The notes under the pieces are model-generated. The model was not told where the DNA came from. It saw nothing but the letters and a program-made list of their open reading frames with translations, and made no database searches. From Dendronalium phyllosphericum CENA369 (GTDB taxonomy: Bacteria > Cyanobacteriota > Cyanobacteriia > Cyanobacteriales > Nostocaceae), in the NCBI RefSeq assembly GCF_016056275.1, contig NZ_JAECZA010000158.1:1-64000 (forward strand): 64,000 nt of DNA, in the 5' to 3' direction. The position numbers and the translations under genes were made by a program. Below are positions 51,588 through 60,447 of this stretch, in pieces. The stretch's first letter is position 1, and every line of letters begins with the position of its first letter.

Positions 51588-52298
51588 AAGGGGTGATTCC
51601 CGTTTCATGCACACTGTGTTGTTACAAACTACGGTTACTCTATCGAGTAGCTGTAATTTTGGATGAAGGCAGAGTATCACAAACATTCACATAAAATCAA
51701 GTCTGATTCTGGATAAACATCCTTTCCAGGCTGATTATATGGATTTCACTTATTTCCTTAGCAATTAAAATTACTTTCTTTCCCAGTTCATTTGACTACG
51801 ATCTCGCTATGAACGCGTTGCTCCCGTTTAGACTTTACTGCGTTCCTAATTTTGAATGCGAGCGATATTTTTAACTTAGCTATAGGTATGATTGCTATAT
51901 AAAAATTTTTTCAGTTTATCTCAAATTTTAATTACTCAATTTTCTTTCTACTGGCTTTAACATTAGTAAGTAAATGGACATAATTAACTATAAAATATCA
52001 AGCTATAAAACCCTGTCGAAAACTAGCTTTTCACTCCTGTTTCCTACTTAAAATTTTTAATGGAATTCTCAGCTAAAATTAATCTAATTAATAGTGAATA
52101 CATTTAAATTATTATGTGAGAGGTTTTGTAGAGCAAAGAGGGCAATAAAATAAAAATATTTAGCAATCTTAATGAAATGGCTGCCGTTTTCACTGTATGT
52201 ATATAACAAAGATAATTTAAAATTAGCTATAAATAAAGATATAGCAATATAATTTTATTATTAAAGCATTCTTAATCGCTATAAATATAATTAAAAAA
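51588..52298. other. AT-rich intergenic region upstream of the two-component genes
   Basis: It contains a dispersed repeat (51966-52031) and one TTCTCAG heptamer at 52066-52072, the same word that clusters at 58.4-59.4 kb. The rest is very AT-rich with no recognised gene. Confidence 0.5.
51966..52031 (+). repeat. dispersed repeat, copy 1 (taagtaaatggacata)
   Basis: TAAGTAAATGGACATAATTAA, then TAAAAT, AAACCCTGTC and AGCT blocks in the same order and spacing as in the copy at 58625-58686. Confidence 0.65.
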
Positions 52299-53717
52299 GT
52301 GAAGCAAATTAGCAAAATTTGGATAAATCTAGATCCATTTTCATTACAGTTACGTCTAACGATTGGCATAGCTATATTTTCGGCTTTGGTATTAGGTAGC
52401 CTCGCAACTTGGATTAGTTGGAAAATGCAGCAAATCTTAATCGATAGTCATAAACAGAATATAGAACAAATCGCTAAACGTTTACCGCAAGATGTAAAAA
52501 TTTATAGTGAAATGATGCAATCGGAAACTGGGTTGCAAAAGGCTATTGATAACTTGACAAATACCAATATATTGTTATGGCTAAAAAGTCCTAAGAATAA
52601 AATATTAGCAAAATCTGCAACTTTAGATTCATTATCTGATTCTATGGTAGCTGAGTTAATGTCCCTAACCCAGATGCCGATTAAACCACAAGTTTACCAA
52701 GTTAACCACAGTTACTTTATTTTATGTGGTAGTTCTGTAGAAGTGCAAGGTAAGTTGCTAGGCGACTTATTTGTAGTCAAGGATATTACCCACGAACAGA
52801 CAATGTTTGTGCTAATGGTGCAGAGTTTAGGTATTACTAGTATTTTAGCAATTATTGCCTTAACAGTTGCGATCGCATTTTATATTAAGCATTCTTTAAA
52901 ACCTCTGCGTCAGCTAAATCAAATGACTGCTGTCATTTCCGTAGAAGATTTAGGGCAAGCACAACTATATCTTGATAATGCACCTAGCGAAGTCAAAGAG
53001 TTAGCTCAAACTTTAACAATGCTGTTATCGCGCCTGGCTCGATCTTGGGAACAAGAGCGAGAATTTGTCAGCAATGTTTCTCATGAGTTACGCACACCGT
53101 TGACAATTGTACATGGTTACTTGCAAAGCGTTTTGCGACGGCAAAATAACTTAACTCAAACTCAACAAGAAGCTTTAGAAACTGCTGCATCGGAAGCCGA
53201 ACGTACCATCCGTCTATTACAAGATTTACTAGATTTAGCACGTGCAGATAGCGGTTATTTGCACTTTCAAATAAAATCTTATGTGTTGAATGACTTAATT
53301 GAAGAAGTTGTGGTGATGGCAGAAAAATATAGCGATCGCGTAATTACCATTGAGTCAAAAACTTATCCAATTGAGGTAAAAGTAGATTACAGCCGTTTCA
53401 AACAAGTATTACTAAATTTGATAGATAATACTGTGAAATATTCTGAAGCTGGTACGCCTATAATTTTTAAATTAAATCAACTTCAAGACAAAGCAATTAT
53501 TCAAATCTGTGACAAAGGTTTTGGCATTCCTTTACAACACCAAGCACGCATTTTTGAGAGATTTTACCGCGTAGATGAATCGCGCAGCCATATAACAGGT
53601 GGGTGTGGTTTGGGTTTATCTATTGTCAAGACACTTGTAGAGGGTATGGGAGGTAGTGTGAACGTGCAATCAAAGTTAGGGGAAGGAAGTATGTTTACAA
53701 TTAGTTTACCTATATAG
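52299..53717 (+). CDS. membrane sensor histidine kinase
   Basis: The 472-aa protein (GTG start) has a transmembrane helix at about 17-39, a ~120-residue periplasmic sensor, a second helix at about 162-190, HAMP (KPLRQLNQMTAVISVEDLG), a HisKA domain with REFVSNVSHELRTPLT (His about 268), and an intact HATPase domain (NLIDNTVKYS, DKGFGIP, FYRVDESR, GGCGLGLSIVKTL). It is followed by an OmpR-type regulator after 315 bases, its likely partner. The separate spacer suggests each also has its own promoter. The periplasmic domain is not a recognised ligand-binding fold. Confidence 0.9.
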   Translation: MKQISKIWINLDPFSLQLRLTIGIAIFSALVLGSLATWISWKMQQILIDSHKQNIEQIAKRLPQDVKIYSEMMQSETGLQKAIDNLTNTNILLWLKSPKNKILAKSATLDSLSDSMVAELMSLTQMPIKPQVYQVNHSYFILCGSSVEVQGKLLGDLFVVKDITHEQTMFVLMVQSLGITSILAIIALTVAIAFYIKHSLKPLRQLNQMTAVISVEDLGQAQLYLDNAPSEVKELAQTLTMLLSRLARSWEQEREFVSNVSHELRTPLTIVHGYLQSVLRRQNNLTQTQQEALETAASEAERTIRLLQDLLDLARADSGYLHFQIKSYVLNDLIEEVVVMAEKYSDRVITIESKTYPIEVKVDYSRFKQVLLNLIDNTVKYSEAGTPIIFKLNQLQDKAIIQICDKGFGIPLQHQARIFERFYRVDESRSHITGGCGLGLSIVKTLVEGMGGSVNVQSKLGEGSMFTISLPI

Positions 53718-54032: not shown

Positions 54033-54707
54033 ATGACAGCACACATACTTTTAGTTGAAGATGAAGTCAAATTAGCGCGATTTGTGGAATTAGAACTGAG
54101 TAGCGAAGGATACAAAGTTAGTATAGCCTATGATGGTATCACAGGACTGACATTGGCACGTGAGTCATCACCAGATTTAGCGGTTCTAGATTGGATGCTG
54201 CCAGGACTATCAGGTTTAGAAATTTGTCGTCGTCTGCGAGCAACAGGTTCTTCTATGCCTGTGATTTTGTTAACAGCAAGAGATGAAGTGAGCGATCGCG
54301 TGGCAGGATTAGATGCAGGAGCCGATGATTATGTAGTTAAGCCCTTCAGCATCGAAGAACTGCTAGCTAGAATCCGCGCTCATCTGCGCCGCACTCAAGA
54401 AACAGATGAAGACTTGTTGCAGTTTGAAGACTTAAGTTTAAATCGCCGCACTCGTGAAGTATTTCGGGGTAAACGAAGTATTGAATTAACAGCAAAAGAG
54501 TTTGACTTATTAGAATATCTTCTTTCACATCCCCGCCAAGTTTTTACTAGAGATCAAATTCTCCAAAAAGTTTGGGGTTACGATTTTATGGGTGATTCTA
54601 ATATTATCGAAGTTTATGTTCGCTATCTACGTTTGAAGCTCGAAGAAAATAACGAGAAACGTTTAGTGCATACAGTGCGTGGTGTAGGTTATGCACTACG
54701 GGAGTAG
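54033..54707 (+). CDS. OmpR-family response regulator
   Basis: The start at 54033 follows an AGGAG site and gives 224 aa (MTAHILLVEDE); an upstream TTG at 54018 would put the receiver's first strand out of register. Receiver domain 1-120: acidic pocket VEDE, phospho-Asp in LAVLDWMLPG (about 51), Thr in LLTARDE and Lys in VVKPF. DNA-binding winged helix 128-224 (ELTAKEFDLLEYLLSHP, NIIEVYVRYLRLKL, VRGVGYALRE). OmpR-type regulators bind 11-bp direct repeats; TTCTCAG repeats with that spacing occur at 59250-59267, so this protein is a candidate to bind them. Confidence 0.92.
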   Translation: MTAHILLVEDEVKLARFVELELSSEGYKVSIAYDGITGLTLARESSPDLAVLDWMLPGLSGLEICRRLRATGSSMPVILLTARDEVSDRVAGLDAGADDYVVKPFSIEELLARIRAHLRRTQETDEDLLQFEDLSLNRRTREVFRGKRSIELTAKEFDLLEYLLSHPRQVFTRDQILQKVWGYDFMGDSNIIEVYVRYLRLKLEENNEKRLVHTVRGVGYALRE

Positions 54708-54785: not shown

Positions 54786-56273
54786 TTAGATGCTCTTGTT
54801 CCAATACTCTAAACCAGTTACAAGTATATCTTCCAACCACTGCTTAAAACGCTCTGTAAGATTGCTTTCTTCATCAGCATAGGAAAACTGAAATGGAGAG
54901 TCAGTTAAAGCTTGAATATCGCTAATATTTCGTTCACCTTCTTCTGCATTATCTCTATGATACGCACAGGCAGAACAAACAAGTAGACCACGATACTCAT
55001 GTCCAAGAACATGCAAAGACAATAAGATTGTTGTTGTTGATTCTACGTCGATTGTTAATTGTATCCAACTATGATATGGACGAAGATTTGCAAAGTATCC
55101 TAGCTGTTTAGCTGTTTCGACAACTTGATAACGATGATAATAGGATCTAGGATCGCCAGGGGGAGCCGAGACTATAAAAACCTGAGCATCATTTATGAGA
55201 TTTTGAACAGATAACCTTATTTCATTAGCAATATCTTGTAAACGAGCGGATGCAATTTCAAAAAGGTTTGTAGCGAAACTCTCGACTTTTTGACAGCGAT
55301 CCTGAATAGTTGCTGATTGATTTTGCTTTAGCTTGTCAGCTATAGAAGCTATAACAACTTGAGCGCGTCGCGCTTCTGACAAGATTTGTTCAGATAAACC
55401 AAGACTACGAATAAATGCTTGCTTTTGACTCCTAGAAAATAAGTTAATCAAATTTGATAAATCACCTCGATCTGCTTGCTCTGAAGCCGCAATATAAGCT
55501 CCTCTGTCGTCACGAGTCAGAACCAAAGGAAACCATCCAGCTTGGATGAAAACTAAGCTAGCGAGGCAGCGAGCAACTCGACCATTGCCATCTTGAAATG
55601 GATGAATTTGTGTAAAGCGATGATGCAGCCATGCTGCTTCAACTTCAGGAGGAATTTGTCTTGCTTGATGTTGATGATGCCATTGAATCAAATTATCCAT
55701 TTCAGAGGCGACTTGTTCTGGAGGACAATATTCGTGCATGGAGCCATCAGGTCTTTTAGGGTTATTAGGGAGTCGCTTCCAGTCACCTTTTATAAGATTA
55801 ACGCGAATGATTTGTCCTATGGGTGTTTCAGCTTCCGTATAATCTTGATTCTGGGTTAGAAGTTGATGCAACTGTTTGGTGTAGAAAGTCGTTAGAGTTC
55901 TCTGTCCACCTACAAAATCAAACAGCCCTTCAATTGCTGCTTCTTGATCCTGGATTAAAGATACAACTTGTCTAATTGGGCGATCTGTAGCTCCATTAGG
56001 AATTAAAGCCTCATTGATTCCTTGCTCAATCAATAACCGAGTGATTCCTCGGTCTAGCGTGTACAGTCGTTCGATTATTCCGGTTTCTATTGCAATCTCT
56101 CGGCGTAACCTCTCCATAAAGGTTTTGAACTCGCCAGAGGAACGAAGACGCTGTGCTTGTTCATTCCAAACAGTAACTAAAGGTGGCAACTCAGCACTAG
56201 CTAATTTTTCCCAGTTTAATGGTAAATCTTCTATTGGTTGCCACTGCATAAAAAACTGTGAAATAATCTGCAT
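54786..56273 (-). CDS. Fic-family AMPylase
   Basis: The 495-aa protein contains a Fic domain with the complete catalytic motif HPFQDGNGRVAR (about residues 218-229), so transfer of AMP (or another nucleotide moiety) to a Ser/Thr/Tyr of a target is expected. FTQIHPFQDGNGR is flanked by the N-terminal helical domain containing QEAAIEG, near which the inhibitory (S/T)xxxE(G/N) helix usually sits, but the first residue is Glu here, so autoinhibition may differ. The C-terminal ~200 residues contain coiled helices, then a beta-rich segment with PGDPRSYYHRYQVV and VCSACAYHRDN (possible metal-binding C/H), not a known partner domain. Convergent with the regulator gene. Start could also be Met9 (56249). 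Confidence 0.82.
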   Translation of the reverse strand: MQIISQFFMQWQPIEDLPLNWEKLASAELPPLVTVWNEQAQRLRSSGEFKTFMERLRREIAIETGIIERLYTLDRGITRLLIEQGINEALIPNGATDRPIRQVVSLIQDQEAAIEGLFDFVGGQRTLTTFYTKQLHQLLTQNQDYTEAETPIGQIIRVNLIKGDWKRLPNNPKRPDGSMHEYCPPEQVASEMDNLIQWHHQHQARQIPPEVEAAWLHHRFTQIHPFQDGNGRVARCLASLVFIQAGWFPLVLTRDDRGAYIAASEQADRGDLSNLINLFSRSQKQAFIRSLGLSEQILSEARRAQVVIASIADKLKQNQSATIQDRCQKVESFATNLFEIASARLQDIANEIRLSVQNLINDAQVFIVSAPPGDPRSYYHRYQVVETAKQLGYFANLRPYHSWIQLTIDVESTTTILLSLHVLGHEYRGLLVCSACAYHRDNAEEGERNISDIQALTDSPFQFSYADEESNLTERFKQWLEDILVTGLEYWNKSI

Positions 56274-56381: not shown

Positions 56382-56897
56382 TTACATATCATCTCTAGAA
56401 GCATTCTGAGCATAATCGGCTGCTGCTTGGGTACGACGGCGGCTCATTTTCTGTTCGTAAGCATCGTAAGCAATACACATCCAAATTAAAGTCATGAATA
56501 AAATATTTTTGTTAAAGCTTTCTGCTGCATTAGGAAACAAACTGCCAGCAGGAATAATGCCAAATGCCAGAATAATACTAAATGTCATTAGAATCAGTAG
56601 TAATCCTGTCCACCGCACCCAATAATTGAGAGCAAATAAAGCACCTAAAATGATTTCTGCTAAAGGTAGCAACCAGCCATAAGGAATGGCAATGAACCAA
56701 GGCAGTGGCCCTACACCTTCCCATCCCGGTGGAATTCCAGGGCCAATTATTTGCAGTTTCAGCGTCAGCACAGTTTGATAGAAACCATTAGGAACGCTGA
56801 AGTTAAGATAGTTAGCAATCCCAGAGAGGAAAAAGAAAACGCCCATCGTCACGCGATTGACAACAAAAGCAATCCGTAGGTTGAGTAGGTATTTCAT
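56382..56897 (-). CDS. DoxX-like integral membrane protein
   Basis: The 171-aa protein has four predicted membrane helices (about 12-35, 63-88, 90-112, 125-148) with the glycine/proline-rich PYGWLLPLAEIILGALFALNYWVRWTGLLL region typical of DoxX proteins. It lies 79 bases downstream of the NADH dehydrogenase gene on the same strand. DoxX-type proteins occur with oxidoreductases and quinone chemistry; a partner role in membrane electron transfer is possible. Confidence 0.7.
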   Translation of the reverse strand: MKYLLNLRIAFVVNRVTMGVFFFLSGIANYLNFSVPNGFYQTVLTLKLQIIGPGIPPGWEGVGPLPWFIAIPYGWLLPLAEIILGALFALNYWVRWTGLLLILMTFSIILAFGIIPAGSLFPNAAESFNKNILFMTLIWMCIAYDAYEQKMSRRRTQAAADYAQNASRDDM

Positions 56898-56976: not shown

Positions 56977-58404
56977 TCAATGAGAAGAGGGTGCAAGCTG
57001 GTCGAGCAACGTCGGTACGCCCGTCCAACTGAAGTTTTGCTGAAATTGCATCGGTTGAGCAGCCCGCCAGACTAGGGGAGTTGCCAAAATCAGTCCGGCA
57101 GCAATGGTTGCAATTCCAGATAGCCAAGGAGTTTGTCCTAACTGCATGTGGGAAAAAGGGCGATCGCGCTGAAATAATTCGTCGGTTAACCACTCAGTTG
57201 TGACTTTGCGATTATGTGCAGAGTTGGGTAGCAGTTGTAGATATGTTGCTTCCCTGATCAAATGACCGGGCTGGCCTTTTATCTGAACTTTATTAAACAA
57301 GTTAGCAACACCTTCATTGAGTCCCAGTTTCATCAAAGTGCCGCGCATTTGAATTTGCACGGGTACAGTTGAATTGCCTTGCCAAAGCCTCTGAAGATTG
57401 TGAGCGATCGCTTTTCCTTGTTGGTAGGCAACTTGGGCTGTGGGTGGTTGGGGATTATTTTTATCTGCGGCACAGTCTCCAGCCGCAAAGACTTCGGGAA
57501 AATCAGGAAGCTGCAATGTCGGTGTCACCACCAGCCGTCCGCGTTTGTCACGTCTTTGGGCTAAGATTGGTAACTCCATCAACAGCGGATTGGGAGTAGT
57601 GCCGGCAGTCCAAGCGATCGTTCCGGCTTGTAAAATCTGTGTTTGGTCGTTTTGCTGATATTCCACACCATCTGCTTGCATCTTGGTAACAACCGCATCG
57701 AATAAGAAATCAACGGGAACCACGCGACGTTTGAGCGCCCCCTGGACTGTACAGCGCAAATGGCTATTCACATCTCCTTTAAGAATTTCCCGACTGCGGT
57801 TGACTAGAACAACCCGAATTTCATCAGCATCGCCGCCCAATTCGTCATACCAAATCGGTAATAAATCTGCTAACGTACACGCTAGTTCAATACCAGCTGG
57901 GCCTGCCCCAATGATGGCAACAGTCAGTAACAACCGACGACGCTCAATATCTTGAGTTTGGATTGCTTGATGCAGTCTGTATCGCAAGTGTTTTCGTAAA
58001 GCGATCGCTTCTTCCCCAGAAGTCAACGGCATCGCATATTCTGCCGCACCGGGAGTATTAAAGTAGGTTGTTTTGCCGCCCAGTGCTAACACTAAGTTGC
58101 GGTAGTCAAAAACTTTTCCAGAAGTTACGGTAACTCTGCATTGATTGAGATGAATTGATTCCACCGTGTCTTGCACAAAAGTTACACTACTGCCAGCTAA
58201 AAGCTCTTGATAGTGGGGATAAACCTGTGAGCTATGCAATTCGCCGCTTAACAGTTCGTATAATAACGGTTTAAAACTGAAGCGATCGCGTTGCTCAATG
58301 AGAATAATTGGATGCGAATAATTTTGATGGCTGAGGTGCAGAGCTGTAAACAGTCCAGCAAAGCCACCACCCAGGATGACTGTGGTATGAGATGATTGCG
58401 GCAT
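56977..58404 (-). CDS. type II NADH dehydrogenase-like FAD oxidoreductase
   Basis: The 475-aa protein is a two-dinucleotide-fold flavoprotein of the NDH-2 family. FAD motif TTVILGGGFAGLFTALHLSHQ at residues 8-28; second Rossmann motif VAIIGAGPAGIELACTLADL (about 163-182); the ATP/FAD signature VFAAGDCAADKN (about 310); and YQQGKAIAHNLQRL. The C-terminal hydrophobic segment (PWLSGIATIAAGLILATPLVW) should anchor it to a membrane. It oxidises NAD(P)H and reduces quinone without pumping protons. Upstream there are three CTGAGAA/TTCTCAG words (58493, 58534, 58598). It forms an operon with the DoxX-like protein. Confidence 0.88.
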   Translation of the reverse strand: MPQSSHTTVILGGGFAGLFTALHLSHQNYSHPIILIEQRDRFSFKPLLYELLSGELHSSQVYPHYQELLAGSSVTFVQDTVESIHLNQCRVTVTSGKVFDYRNLVLALGGKTTYFNTPGAAEYAMPLTSGEEAIALRKHLRYRLHQAIQTQDIERRRLLLTVAIIGAGPAGIELACTLADLLPIWYDELGGDADEIRVVLVNRSREILKGDVNSHLRCTVQGALKRRVVPVDFLFDAVVTKMQADGVEYQQNDQTQILQAGTIAWTAGTTPNPLLMELPILAQRRDKRGRLVVTPTLQLPDFPEVFAAGDCAADKNNPQPPTAQVAYQQGKAIAHNLQRLWQGNSTVPVQIQMRGTLMKLGLNEGVANLFNKVQIKGQPGHLIREATYLQLLPNSAHNRKVTTEWLTDELFQRDRPFSHMQLGQTPWLSGIATIAAGLILATPLVWRAAQPMQFQQNFSWTGVPTLLDQLAPSSH

Positions 58405-58624
58405 AGATGTAAGATGTAAGAGTTGCTTTTGTGAACTGCTGTTAGTATTGCGGCATTTAACAACTCTTAAGTGATGAAAGAATAAAGCTTAACTGAGAAA
58501 TTAAAGGGAATTTGCGACATAGTTTTTACTATTTTCTCAGCAATAATTCAGCATTTATATAATATTGTCGAGCTTCCCAGGTTTAATAAGTTTGAACCTG
58601 AGAAGACGATTACTTAATTCTTTC

Positions 58625-58686
58625 TAAGTAGGTGGACATAATTAAATGTAAAATGCCAACCAGTGAAACCCTGTCATCAGCTGGCA
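58625..58686 (+). repeat. dispersed repeat, copy 2 (taagtaggtggacata)
   Basis: It matches the copy at 51966-52031 in several blocks (TAAGTA..TGGACATAATTAA, TAAAAT, AAACCCTGTC, AGCT). It may be a small non-coding mobile repeat. Confidence 0.65.
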
Positions 58687-58699
58687 TTTACCTTCTGGA

Positions 58700-58740
58700 G
58701 ACACTTGCGTGGGCGGGTTTCCCGACTTGAGCAAAGTGTC
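58700..58740. repeat. hairpin repeat, member 3
   Basis: GACACTT pairs with AAGTGTC, with an inner CGGG-TTTC-CCG stem. The flanking words TTGAGCAAA and TTGCGTG match, in reverse complement, the hairpin at 13557-13595. Confidence 0.55.
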
Positions 58741-58771
58741 GTCCTTCTGCCTTCTGCCTTCTACTTAGAAG

Positions 58772-59131
58772 TTATTTCACTTCATTGGGTTCAAACTTAG
58801 CCACTTTACCTTTTTTAATGGCAACAATCACATCATATGTTGAACAGTAAGAAAATGTGACATTGTTGGCTTTGTTATAAAGATTAACCACATGACCCGC
58901 TCCACCCGGTTGGATACCGATTGGCTCTAAATCACCGAAAAAGAAACGGCGCAGCTGATCGCCACTACCAATCTGACCTTTACTTTTAGTAAGTAATTCT
59001 ATTTTCTGTTGTACAGATAATTCTTGAGCTGAGGCCTGAACTAATGAAGGATTAATTACTTTTAATGGTGCGTCCCAAACCGTTAGAAAACCAGTCAAAG
59101 TAACAGTTGCAATTAAGGGTGCGAGTTTCAT
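58772..59131 (-). CDS. small exported protein of unknown function
   Basis: The 119-aa protein has an N-terminal hydrophobic segment (MKLAPLIATVTLTGFLTVW) and a likely cleavage site after about residue 34 (LVQASAQ), with a good ribosome-binding site (AGGAGTC). The mature part begins with a charged helix (ELSVQQKIELLTKSKG) and then a GDLEPIGIQPGGAGHVVNLYNKANNVTFSYCSTYDVIVAIKKGKV region with one cysteine. No recognised domain. It diverges from the EamA transporter, sharing a promoter region with repeated TTCTCAG words. Confidence 0.6.
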   Translation of the reverse strand: MKLAPLIATVTLTGFLTVWDAPLKVINPSLVQASAQELSVQQKIELLTKSKGQIGSGDQLRRFFFGDLEPIGIQPGGAGHVVNLYNKANNVTFSYCSTYDVIVAIKKGKVAKFEPNEVK

Positions 59132-59249
59132 TTTTGACTCCTGATGTTTGAGTTGTCTCGAACACCCAAACTATGCCAATAAAAACTGAGATATTCTTGA
59201 AACTAAATCATGATTTTCATGAATTTATACCTTAATAAAATTCATTTAG

Positions 59250-59316
59250 TTCTCAGTATTTTCTCAGACAGATATAGTAAACTCCAACTCCTAAGATAAT
59301 TTAAGTATTTTCTCAG
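59250..59316. promoter_or_regulatory. TTCTCAG direct repeats, likely response-regulator sites
   Basis: TTCTCAG at 59250-59256 and 59261-59267 (exactly 11 bases apart) and again at 59310-59316, in the divergent promoter of the secreted protein and EamA transporter. Eleven-base direct repeats are typical of OmpR/PhoB-type sites. Confidence 0.5.
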
Positions 59317-59388
59317 CGAAATCTCATACTGAATTAAACAAAGTCAACTTAGTATAATGAGCAATGTCTTCATTGTACTGATGTTATT

Positions 59389-60447
59389 GTGACTAGAGCC
59401 AGAAGACCACATCGCCTAACTCGTAAAATTTCTGGACAAACATATCTTTGGCTAGCAATGCTAATTTTTGGAGCTTCTAGTGCAGTCACTCGCAAGCTTA
59501 CAGAAATTGGTGCTCAACACTTCATAGGCGATCGCAACCCAATTTCTTTGTGTAATGTTTTATTCGTGGGAAATTTATGCGCCTTAATAGTTCTGATTTT
59601 AATTTATTGGCGACAGTGGAATAGAGCTACTTTGAAGCAACTATCAAAGAAGGATTGGCTCAGTCTCACAGCAGTAGCAATATTATCAGGAGCGCTGGCC
59701 CCTGGCTTAATTTTCCAGGCACTAGCACTGACAAAGGTGAATAATGTGATTTTGGTGGGACGCTTGGAACCACCTTTAACTCTGGCTTTATCGGTCTGGT
59801 TGTTGAAAGAACGGGTAAGTCTTTGGGAATTTCTGGGGGCAATTGCTGCTTTTGTTGGTGTTACCCTAACTATTATTCTTCAGCCTCCAGAGGCAGCCAT
59901 GATGAATATGGGAGGTTTGCAATTGGGCTTAGGAGAACTCCTAGTAGCGGCAGGATCTCTGGCTGTAGCTGTTTCTACAATTCTTGGCAAAAAATACCTT
60001 TCCCAGATTTCTCTAGGAATTTACAGTATCTTTCGTACTGCACTAGGAACAGTAATCTTTTTCTGCATTGCTTTAATCCTTTATGGCCGCGACCATTTTG
60101 CTGATGTCCTTTCACCATTCTTGTGGCAGTGGATGTTCCTTTATGGTGGATTGATTGTGGTATTAGGCCAGTCATTCTGGATAAAAGGTTTGAAAACTTC
60201 CAGTGTATCTGTGGCTTCCTTAATTAGCTCGTTTACTCCAATCGCAGGCATTTTGGCTGCTTATTTAATCTTAGGTGAAGCTCCTACCCTAGCCCAATAT
60301 GTCGGCGGTAGCGTTATTTTAATTGGCATATTCTTCAGCCAAGTTGGTATTTTGCGTCAGATGAATCGCAAAGTTGCGTCTGCTGGAGTGGAACTCACTC
60401 CAGCAGAACAACAGGTAGAAACTGGTATGGGATTTAAAGGGATATGA
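59389..60447 (+). CDS. EamA/DMT-family transporter
   Basis: The 352-aa protein begins at a GTG at 59389, follows a short basic N-terminus, and has ten membrane helices in two EamA repeats (about 15-155 and 175-320), e.g. AILSGALAPGLIFQALALTKVNNVILVGRLEPPLTLALSVWLLKERVSLWE and the paired SVASLISSFTPIAGILAAYLILGEAP. DMT proteins export amino acids, sugars or metabolites. The direction and substrate are not known. It shares a promoter region with the small exported protein. Confidence 0.85.
   Translation: MTRARRPHRLTRKISGQTYLWLAMLIFGASSAVTRKLTEIGAQHFIGDRNPISLCNVLFVGNLCALIVLILIYWRQWNRATLKQLSKKDWLSLTAVAILSGALAPGLIFQALALTKVNNVILVGRLEPPLTLALSVWLLKERVSLWEFLGAIAAFVGVTLTIILQPPEAAMMNMGGLQLGLGELLVAAGSLAVAVSTILGKKYLSQISLGIYSIFRTALGTVIFFCIALILYGRDHFADVLSPFLWQWMFLYGGLIVVLGQSFWIKGLKTSSVSVASLISSFTPIAGILAAYLILGEAPTLAQYVGGSVILIGIFFSQVGILRQMNRKVASAGVELTPAEQQVETGMGFKGI

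Follow-up and report, generated by a model that had tools for sequence, protein, structure and literature searches.

The TTCTCAG/CTGAGAA heptamers found in the window (the whole 64 kb stretch of DNA that we analyzed) are probably the cores of candidate operators for the response regulator encoded at 54033, and would define a two-component regulon. We put the chance of this at slightly better than three in four. Comparison between genomes finds a box conserved at the promoters of NDH-2, of a small exported protein, and of the kinase or the DM13-DUF4079-kinase genes, both within the family and in some further families of its order. Genes for the kinase and the regulator are repeatedly found next to the targets. 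The proposal of the preliminary description, that OmpR/PhoB-type sites tie together NDH-2/DoxX, the exported protein, EamA and the kinase/regulator genes, is thus supported by conservation, linkage and presence/absence. The last two point to the regulator at 54033. The features concerned are as follows.

52053..52083, minus strand: kinase-upstream box with heptamer 52066; 14.1 bits, the highest-scoring box of the window once training sites are set aside
52299..53717, plus strand: sensor histidine kinase, 472 aa (Pfam HisKA, HATPase_c)
54033..54707, plus strand: OmpR/PhoB-family response regulator (Pfam Response_reg, Trans_reg_C), the proposed reader of the box
56382..56897, minus strand: DoxX/MauE-like membrane protein, downstream of NDH-2 (Pfam matches under the gathering score)
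56977..58404, minus strand: NDH-2-like pyridine nucleotide-disulphide oxidoreductase (Pfam Pyr_redox_2)
58483..58501, minus strand: NDH-2 site B, ATTTCTCAGTTAAGCTTTA, with heptamer 58493; exact heptamer in 14 of 20 related loci
58521..58551, minus strand: NDH-2 site A, CTGAATTATTGCTGAGAAAATAGTAAAAACT, with heptamer 58534; exact heptamer in 17 of 20 related loci
58598..58604, minus strand: heptamer copy that is not conserved
58772..59131, minus strand: small exported protein, 119 aa (export predicted from the N-terminus)
59237..59267, minus strand: proximal box, CTGAGAA-4-CTGAGAA, with heptamers 59261 and 59250, upstream of the exported protein
59297..59327, minus strand: distal box with heptamer 59310, closer to EamA and kept in near relatives
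59389..60447, plus strand: EamA-family transporter (Pfam EamA), divergent from the exported protein, with which it has a common upstream gap

No curated NCBIfam NDH-2 model passed for the 56977..58404 protein, for which NDH-2 is an assigned name, and the exported protein matches no Pfam family above cut-off. A gene for a Fic-domain protein (54786-56273) lies between the regulator and NDH-2/DoxX.

An exact word search places TTCTCAG/CTGAGAA at 58493, 58534, 58598, 59250, 59261 and 59310, plus 52066, and none of these lies inside a listed open reading frame of at least 80 aa. This agrees with the preliminary description, which had six copies at the first six of these positions, all of them intergenic. 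The full 64 kb has 13 copies compared with 9.75 expected, and 13 of 100 shuffles reach that number. The total is therefore ordinary, and the signal lies in the clustering. The gaps 58405-58771 and 59132-59388, together 624 bp, contain six heptamers, where a first-order Markov simulation gives a mean of 0.16 and a maximum of 3 in 20,000 runs; the earlier estimate of less than one copy by chance in ~620 bp was thus sound. When any 7-mer is allowed, 2% of 1000 simulations reach six copies in 624 bp, and when any 7-mer with at least three G/C is allowed none of 1000 does so. Given the ordinary count across the window we rejected the bare heptamer as the element. The signal is carried by a longer sequence.

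The heptamers form the core of a longer, 31-bp box (CTGAnnnnnnGCTGAGAAnnnaCTnAA), whose units recur every 11 bp in 31 aligned sites. The consensus of this alignment is CTGAGAAAnTGCTGAGAAAAnACTnAAATTT, in which T2, A4, CTGAG at positions 12-16, T24 and A26 are invariant, and the aligned sites contain CTGA-N7-CTGAG or a near variant. The box therefore has the direct repeats with ~11-bp spacing of an OmpR/PhoB-type operator. As had been claimed, an interval of exactly 11 bp separates the heptamers at 59250 and 59261. Both are real, but they form one box rather than two separate sites. In the same way the OmpR/PhoB-like spacing of the proposed operator stands, but its unit is the 31-bp, 11-bp-periodic element and not the heptamer. 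The 59250/59261 pair is the only perfect one in the window; the partner unit of 58534 matches at 4 of 7 positions, and that of 59310 at 5 of 7. The orientation of the box relative to the gene varies between promoters, as does its distance. The sequences point to a real, conserved operator of PhoB/OmpR layout, a candidate site most likely read by the regulator at 54033.

Five of the six copies that had been linked lie within conserved boxes, but 58598 does not. None of the 20 NDH-2 loci has a copy at the corresponding distance, and around 58598 only 0 to 3 of 7 bases match at +/-11 and +/-22 bp. Since it is not conserved in the related NDH-2 loci it was rejected as a sixth site, and it probably lies outside the regulatory system.

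For NDH-2 the comparison was made with 20 related loci (L037-L056, the window not being counted), in 19 of which the DoxX gene adjoins NDH-2. A counterpart of site A is found at about -130 in 17 of the 20 (-110 in L055), and one of site B at about -89 in 14, with one-base variants in L039-L041 and L045. L052 has site B alone, and L050 and L056 have no exact copy of either site. In the alignment of the upstream regions CTGAATTATTGCTGAGAAA and AATTTCTCAGcTAAGCTTTA stand out as islands. Orthologues of this NDH-2 with at least 82% identity occur in only 9 of 100 genomes, including its own, so that the NDH-2 target is confined to near relatives. The relatives that encode it are mostly filamentous cyanobacteria (Nostoc, Calothrix, Anabaena, Fischerella and others).

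The exported protein is more widely matched, in 42 of 100 genomes (E<=0.001, including the window's own and two weak matches). At least one exact heptamer lies at -116 to -150 of the matched start in 23 of 30 exported-protein loci, and the exact 11-bp pair in 6 of the 30, the window being included in both counts. The general form of the box here is CTGAGAAAATGCTGAG. Several relatives keep the divergent exported-protein/EamA pair with a box between the genes, and the distal box is kept with small changes in L008-L011, L037, L044 and L096. Among 18 further exported-protein loci, eight score at least 24 bits (G021, G026, G035, G039, G040, G046 twice and G053), and none of these is from the training set. 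Nine stay under 2 bits (the second copies in G018 and G037; G051; G056; G057 twice; G060; G086; G094), and one (L242, in G088) gave no exported-protein match. G056 and G057 carry the regulator, yet have no box at their exported-protein relatives, which are divergent (44-56% identity). The absence of the box is therefore not paired with absence of the regulator in these two genomes.

The matrix was trained solely on NDH-2 and exported-protein sites, so the promoter region of the kinase provides evidence from genes on which it was not trained. In the window genome the kinase box sits 215 bp before the kinase. Twenty simulated windows gave one match of at least 14 bits. Genome-wide its 14.1 bits would not be outstanding, and its support comes from conservation. 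A scan of 57 loci retrieved around the kinase orthologue (805,638 bp, some widened to reach the exported-protein gene) gave 57 sites of at least 14 bits. Twenty-eight of them, in 27 loci, lie before kinase, DM13 or DUF4079 genes only (DM13 20, kinase 5, DUF4079 2, and both DM13 and DUF4079 1). Eighteen lie before exported protein, EamA or NDH-2 genes only, three before genes of both kinds, and eight near none. Sites of the trained type include the training sites themselves, and the untrained evidence is therefore the 28. The reversed matrix gave 2 matches, one of them upstream of DM13, and 50 column-permuted matrices gave a mean of 1.5 and a maximum of 5. The kinase was a target set beforehand; DM13 and DUF4079 were recognised after the scan from the genes behind the boxes. 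DM13 is present in 26 of the 57 loci and DUF4079 in 30. Of 120 matrix matches of at least 15 bits, 12 fall inside genes by a crude ORF rule.

In gene orientation the kinase/DM13-type site reads approximately AAATTTTCAGCAAATTCTCAGCTTAAATTAATTT. Of 55 oriented loci, 26 have a reverse-oriented site of at least 13 bits no more than 1.8 kb upstream of the kinase, a count from which L099 was left out as its match is the exported-protein box. In many relatives the gene for a DM13 lipoprotein stands in front of the kinase, and it is missing from this place in the window. The copy at 52066 had been placed upstream of the sensor kinase, and the same element is indeed found before the kinase or DM13 in relatives. 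In many relatives the box precedes the DM13 lipoprotein gene, often with DUF4079 after it. The DM13 orthologue of the window genome is elsewhere, on C143, with no box of at least 9 bits near it. G070 has a 22-bit site before DM13. In L115, L121, L123, L125, L163 and L184 (the last two from one genome) the box-bearing gap before DM13 is shared with a divergent gene for a cellulose-synthase-like, PilZ-containing glycosyltransferase. The preliminary description had staked its proposal on conservation of the heptamers in related genomes, and this is what we observe for NDH-2, for the exported protein (and EamA where it is divergent) and for the kinase operon.

It had also described a sensor kinase with an OmpR-type partner at 54033, and the Pfam domains confirm both. 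The regulator frame opens at TTG 54018 with ATG 54033 in frame, and PF00072 and PF00486 both score far above their cut-offs, placing the protein in the OmpR/PhoB family. None of the curated subfamilies claims it. NblR (NCBIfam NF045914) is the best, at 282 bits with a cut-off of 300; RppA follows at 241.6 bits (cut-off 250) and the CzcR/SilR/CopR heavy-metal family TIGR01387 at 239.3 bits (cut-off 279.2), and the score for PhoB is likewise under its cut-off. The best NCBIfam model for the kinase is cztS_silS_copS, to which it is alike in overall architecture, with 236 bits compared with a cut-off of 292.55. The modeled sensor region (mean pLDDT 73.9) matches among others the extracellular domain of WalK (7dud, E 3.9e-5) and, less closely, CzcS (5gpo, E 7.1e-4), with modest TM-scores. 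Unlike the CzcS/SilS/CopS kinases and WalK, the window kinase stays under the curated cut-offs, and sequence identity in the fold matches is no higher than 20%. From this model we read the sensor region as sCache/PDC-like. In the kinase alignment L083 was left out, and L071, which has an internal stop, was unused. For the modeled exported protein (pLDDT 78.9) the PDB search gave nothing at E<=0.001.

Which regulator reads the box is addressed by linkage and by presence/absence. Orthologues of the kinase occur in 58 of 100 genomes (E<=1e-100) and of the regulator in 68 (E<=1e-98), the window's own genome included. Of the 36 genomes that have both the regulator and the exported protein, 14, representing 14 genera, have them no more than 10 kb apart; for the kinase and the exported protein this is so in 14 of 34. 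These counts include the window, omit the weak exported-protein matches in G042 and G088, and use one location, the best, in each genome. Near NDH-2/DoxX the regulator is found in 5 of the 20 loci (L037, L044, L048, L050 and L053). In L044, L050 and L053 the kinase beside it is only ~45% identical, in L048 the kinase is cut off by the contig end, and in L037 no kinase was matched. L096 has both kinases, the usual one and a second, ~45% identical, beside the same regulator.

A sequence-only model of the box (R1) was run on 40 genomes, 31 with the regulator (E<=1e-98) and nine without a match at that threshold; of the nine, G060 alone was checked at a looser threshold, where its best match is its NblR. 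All 40 have some model match at E<=1, and thus the mere presence of a match means little. The best E-values are lower where the regulator is present (31 v 9, Mann-Whitney p 1e-4), and this persists within the same family (21 v 3, p 0.008) and when the training genomes are dropped (20 v 9, p 9e-4); kinship is ignored in all three tests. The nine regulator-less genomes have weak best boxes, with E 0.02-0.56, the 0.02 being that of G016. Weak values are also found in five of the 31 regulator genomes (G011 0.114, G020 0.252, G063 0.207, G070 0.286 and G072 0.185).

The most substantial alternative, which we nevertheless regard as unlikely, is that the operators are real but serve chiefly a different member of the OmpR family, for instance NblR or a further OmpR-type regulator of the window genome. 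The regulator at 54033 scores near NblR, its recognition-helix region is nearly identical to that of the NblR-type paralogues, about 20 regulators of the window genome match most of the NblR model, and the kinase adjoining the regulator differs in some relatives. Yet the window genome has a separate NblR (C110:67387, 407.7 bits), and NblR is above cut-off in all nine regulator-less genomes (in G065 barely, at 300.8 bits), where the best boxes are weak, which speaks against NblR as the reader. G060 has a relative of the exported protein as well as NblR, yet no box. Moreover the linkage is to the 54033 regulator and its kinase. NblR as the reader of the box is therefore disfavored.

Binding by a factor outside the OmpR family, for example a one-component repressor or an alternative sigma factor, with the kinase/regulator linkage reflecting shared physiology, seems to us distinctly less probable again. 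The variable distance and orientation of the box would suit such a factor, and at two places (59250 and 58534) TTCTCA lies 17-18 nt from TATAGT or TATAAT. However, five such promoter-like matches were found compared with a shuffle mean of 2.9 (sd 1.8), which is not clearly above chance, and heptamer-like units repeated every 11 bp are arranged as in PhoB-class sites. We give almost no credence to a chance cluster, a dispersed repeat or an RNA element with no regulator involved. The heptamer count across the whole window is ordinary and a dispersed repeat adjoins two of the regions, but the heptamers lie outside that repeat (about 51970-52050 and 58620-58700). The box is conserved across many genera, and boxes are recovered before untrained genes where control matrices give near zero.

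If the regulator at 54033 is indeed the reader, the kinase would sense an extracytoplasmic cue via its putative sCache/PDC-like domain and phosphorylate the regulator, dimers of which would bind the tandem 11-bp units. Bound regulator would then alter transcription of NDH-2-DoxX, the small exported protein and EamA, and by acting on the kinase's own operon would provide feedback. We expect activation rather than repression. Since the target set comprises quinone/NADH redox functions, a DM13 'electron transfer' lipoprotein and exported or membrane proteins, the response may be one of envelope or redox acclimation.

Among known systems the closest in layout are the Pho boxes of PhoB/SphR, which are tandem direct repeats with an 11-bp period read by an OmpR-family protein. 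According to PMC1906773 these consist of 8-bp repeats with a 3-bp linker, with at least three repeats for SphR, and the 11-bp period of the box therefore suits this class. The SphR motif given there, CTTAACCT, differs by eye from the CTGAGAA-based consensus, and the targets are other ones. RppA/RppB is similarly an OmpR-type cyanobacterial two-component system, but in addition to the regulator falling below the RppA cut-off the window kinase scores 178.7 bits where 400 is required, and the RppA motif AAMAWCTCYYWCCCC given in PMC13421787 differs from the box. This 2026 review lists RpaB, Rre1, RppA, RpaA, ManR and CopR, and makes no mention of NblR, NDH-2 or DoxX. Among the matches listed by open-access literature searches (motif, gene set, DM13, NblR binding; subscription papers lay outside) there was no account of the regulon, and in PMC10878165 and PMC7251215 the heptamer word is part of a primer.

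As proposed, the regulon would be new, with a mechanism of a known type. In its fullest form, which we advance tentatively and at a little under even odds, it would be an undescribed two-component regulon of one cyanobacterial family and other families of the order. An extracytoplasmic sensor would control the DM13 lipoprotein, DUF4079, NDH-2 with DoxX, the 119-residue exported protein without known fold match, and EamA, in an envelope electron-transfer/redox-stress response distinct from the RpaB, Rre1, RppA, ManR and CopR circuits. A cyanobacterial two-component system for which no study was found thereby gains a candidate regulator, a binding-site motif to search with and a list of predicted targets. 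The exported protein, DUF4079 and the DM13 lipoprotein, from families without known function, are placed in one testable response, and the motif can be used at once in reading existing transcriptomes.

Some observations concern sites elsewhere. In its own genome (8.38 Mb) the R1 model has 11 matches at E<=1. Seven are among the matches listed, three of these being the boxes of the window; the remaining four (C219 twice, C228 and C312) score 19.3, 11.1, 12.0 and below 9 bits. The 19.3-bit box is at G000:C219:112055-112078 (L221). Exact-pattern extras from the same genome (L006, L088-L090) have no site of at least 9 bits and were dropped; the exact-pattern matches L002-L005 were outside the matrix scoring. 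G022:C69:71000-86000 (L178, L179) carries several strong boxes in ~15 kb together with two exported-protein genes. Another small exported protein is encoded in the same region (L179:1701-2069), and its G009 relative (L217) has a box too. The dispersed repeat, with core GTGGACATAATTAAA, adjoins two of the regulated regions (at 51960-52070 and 58615-58730), and the alignment of its two copies in the window spans about 80 bp. Genome-wide the core occurs 22 times exactly and 15 times with one mismatch, the reversed pattern giving five.
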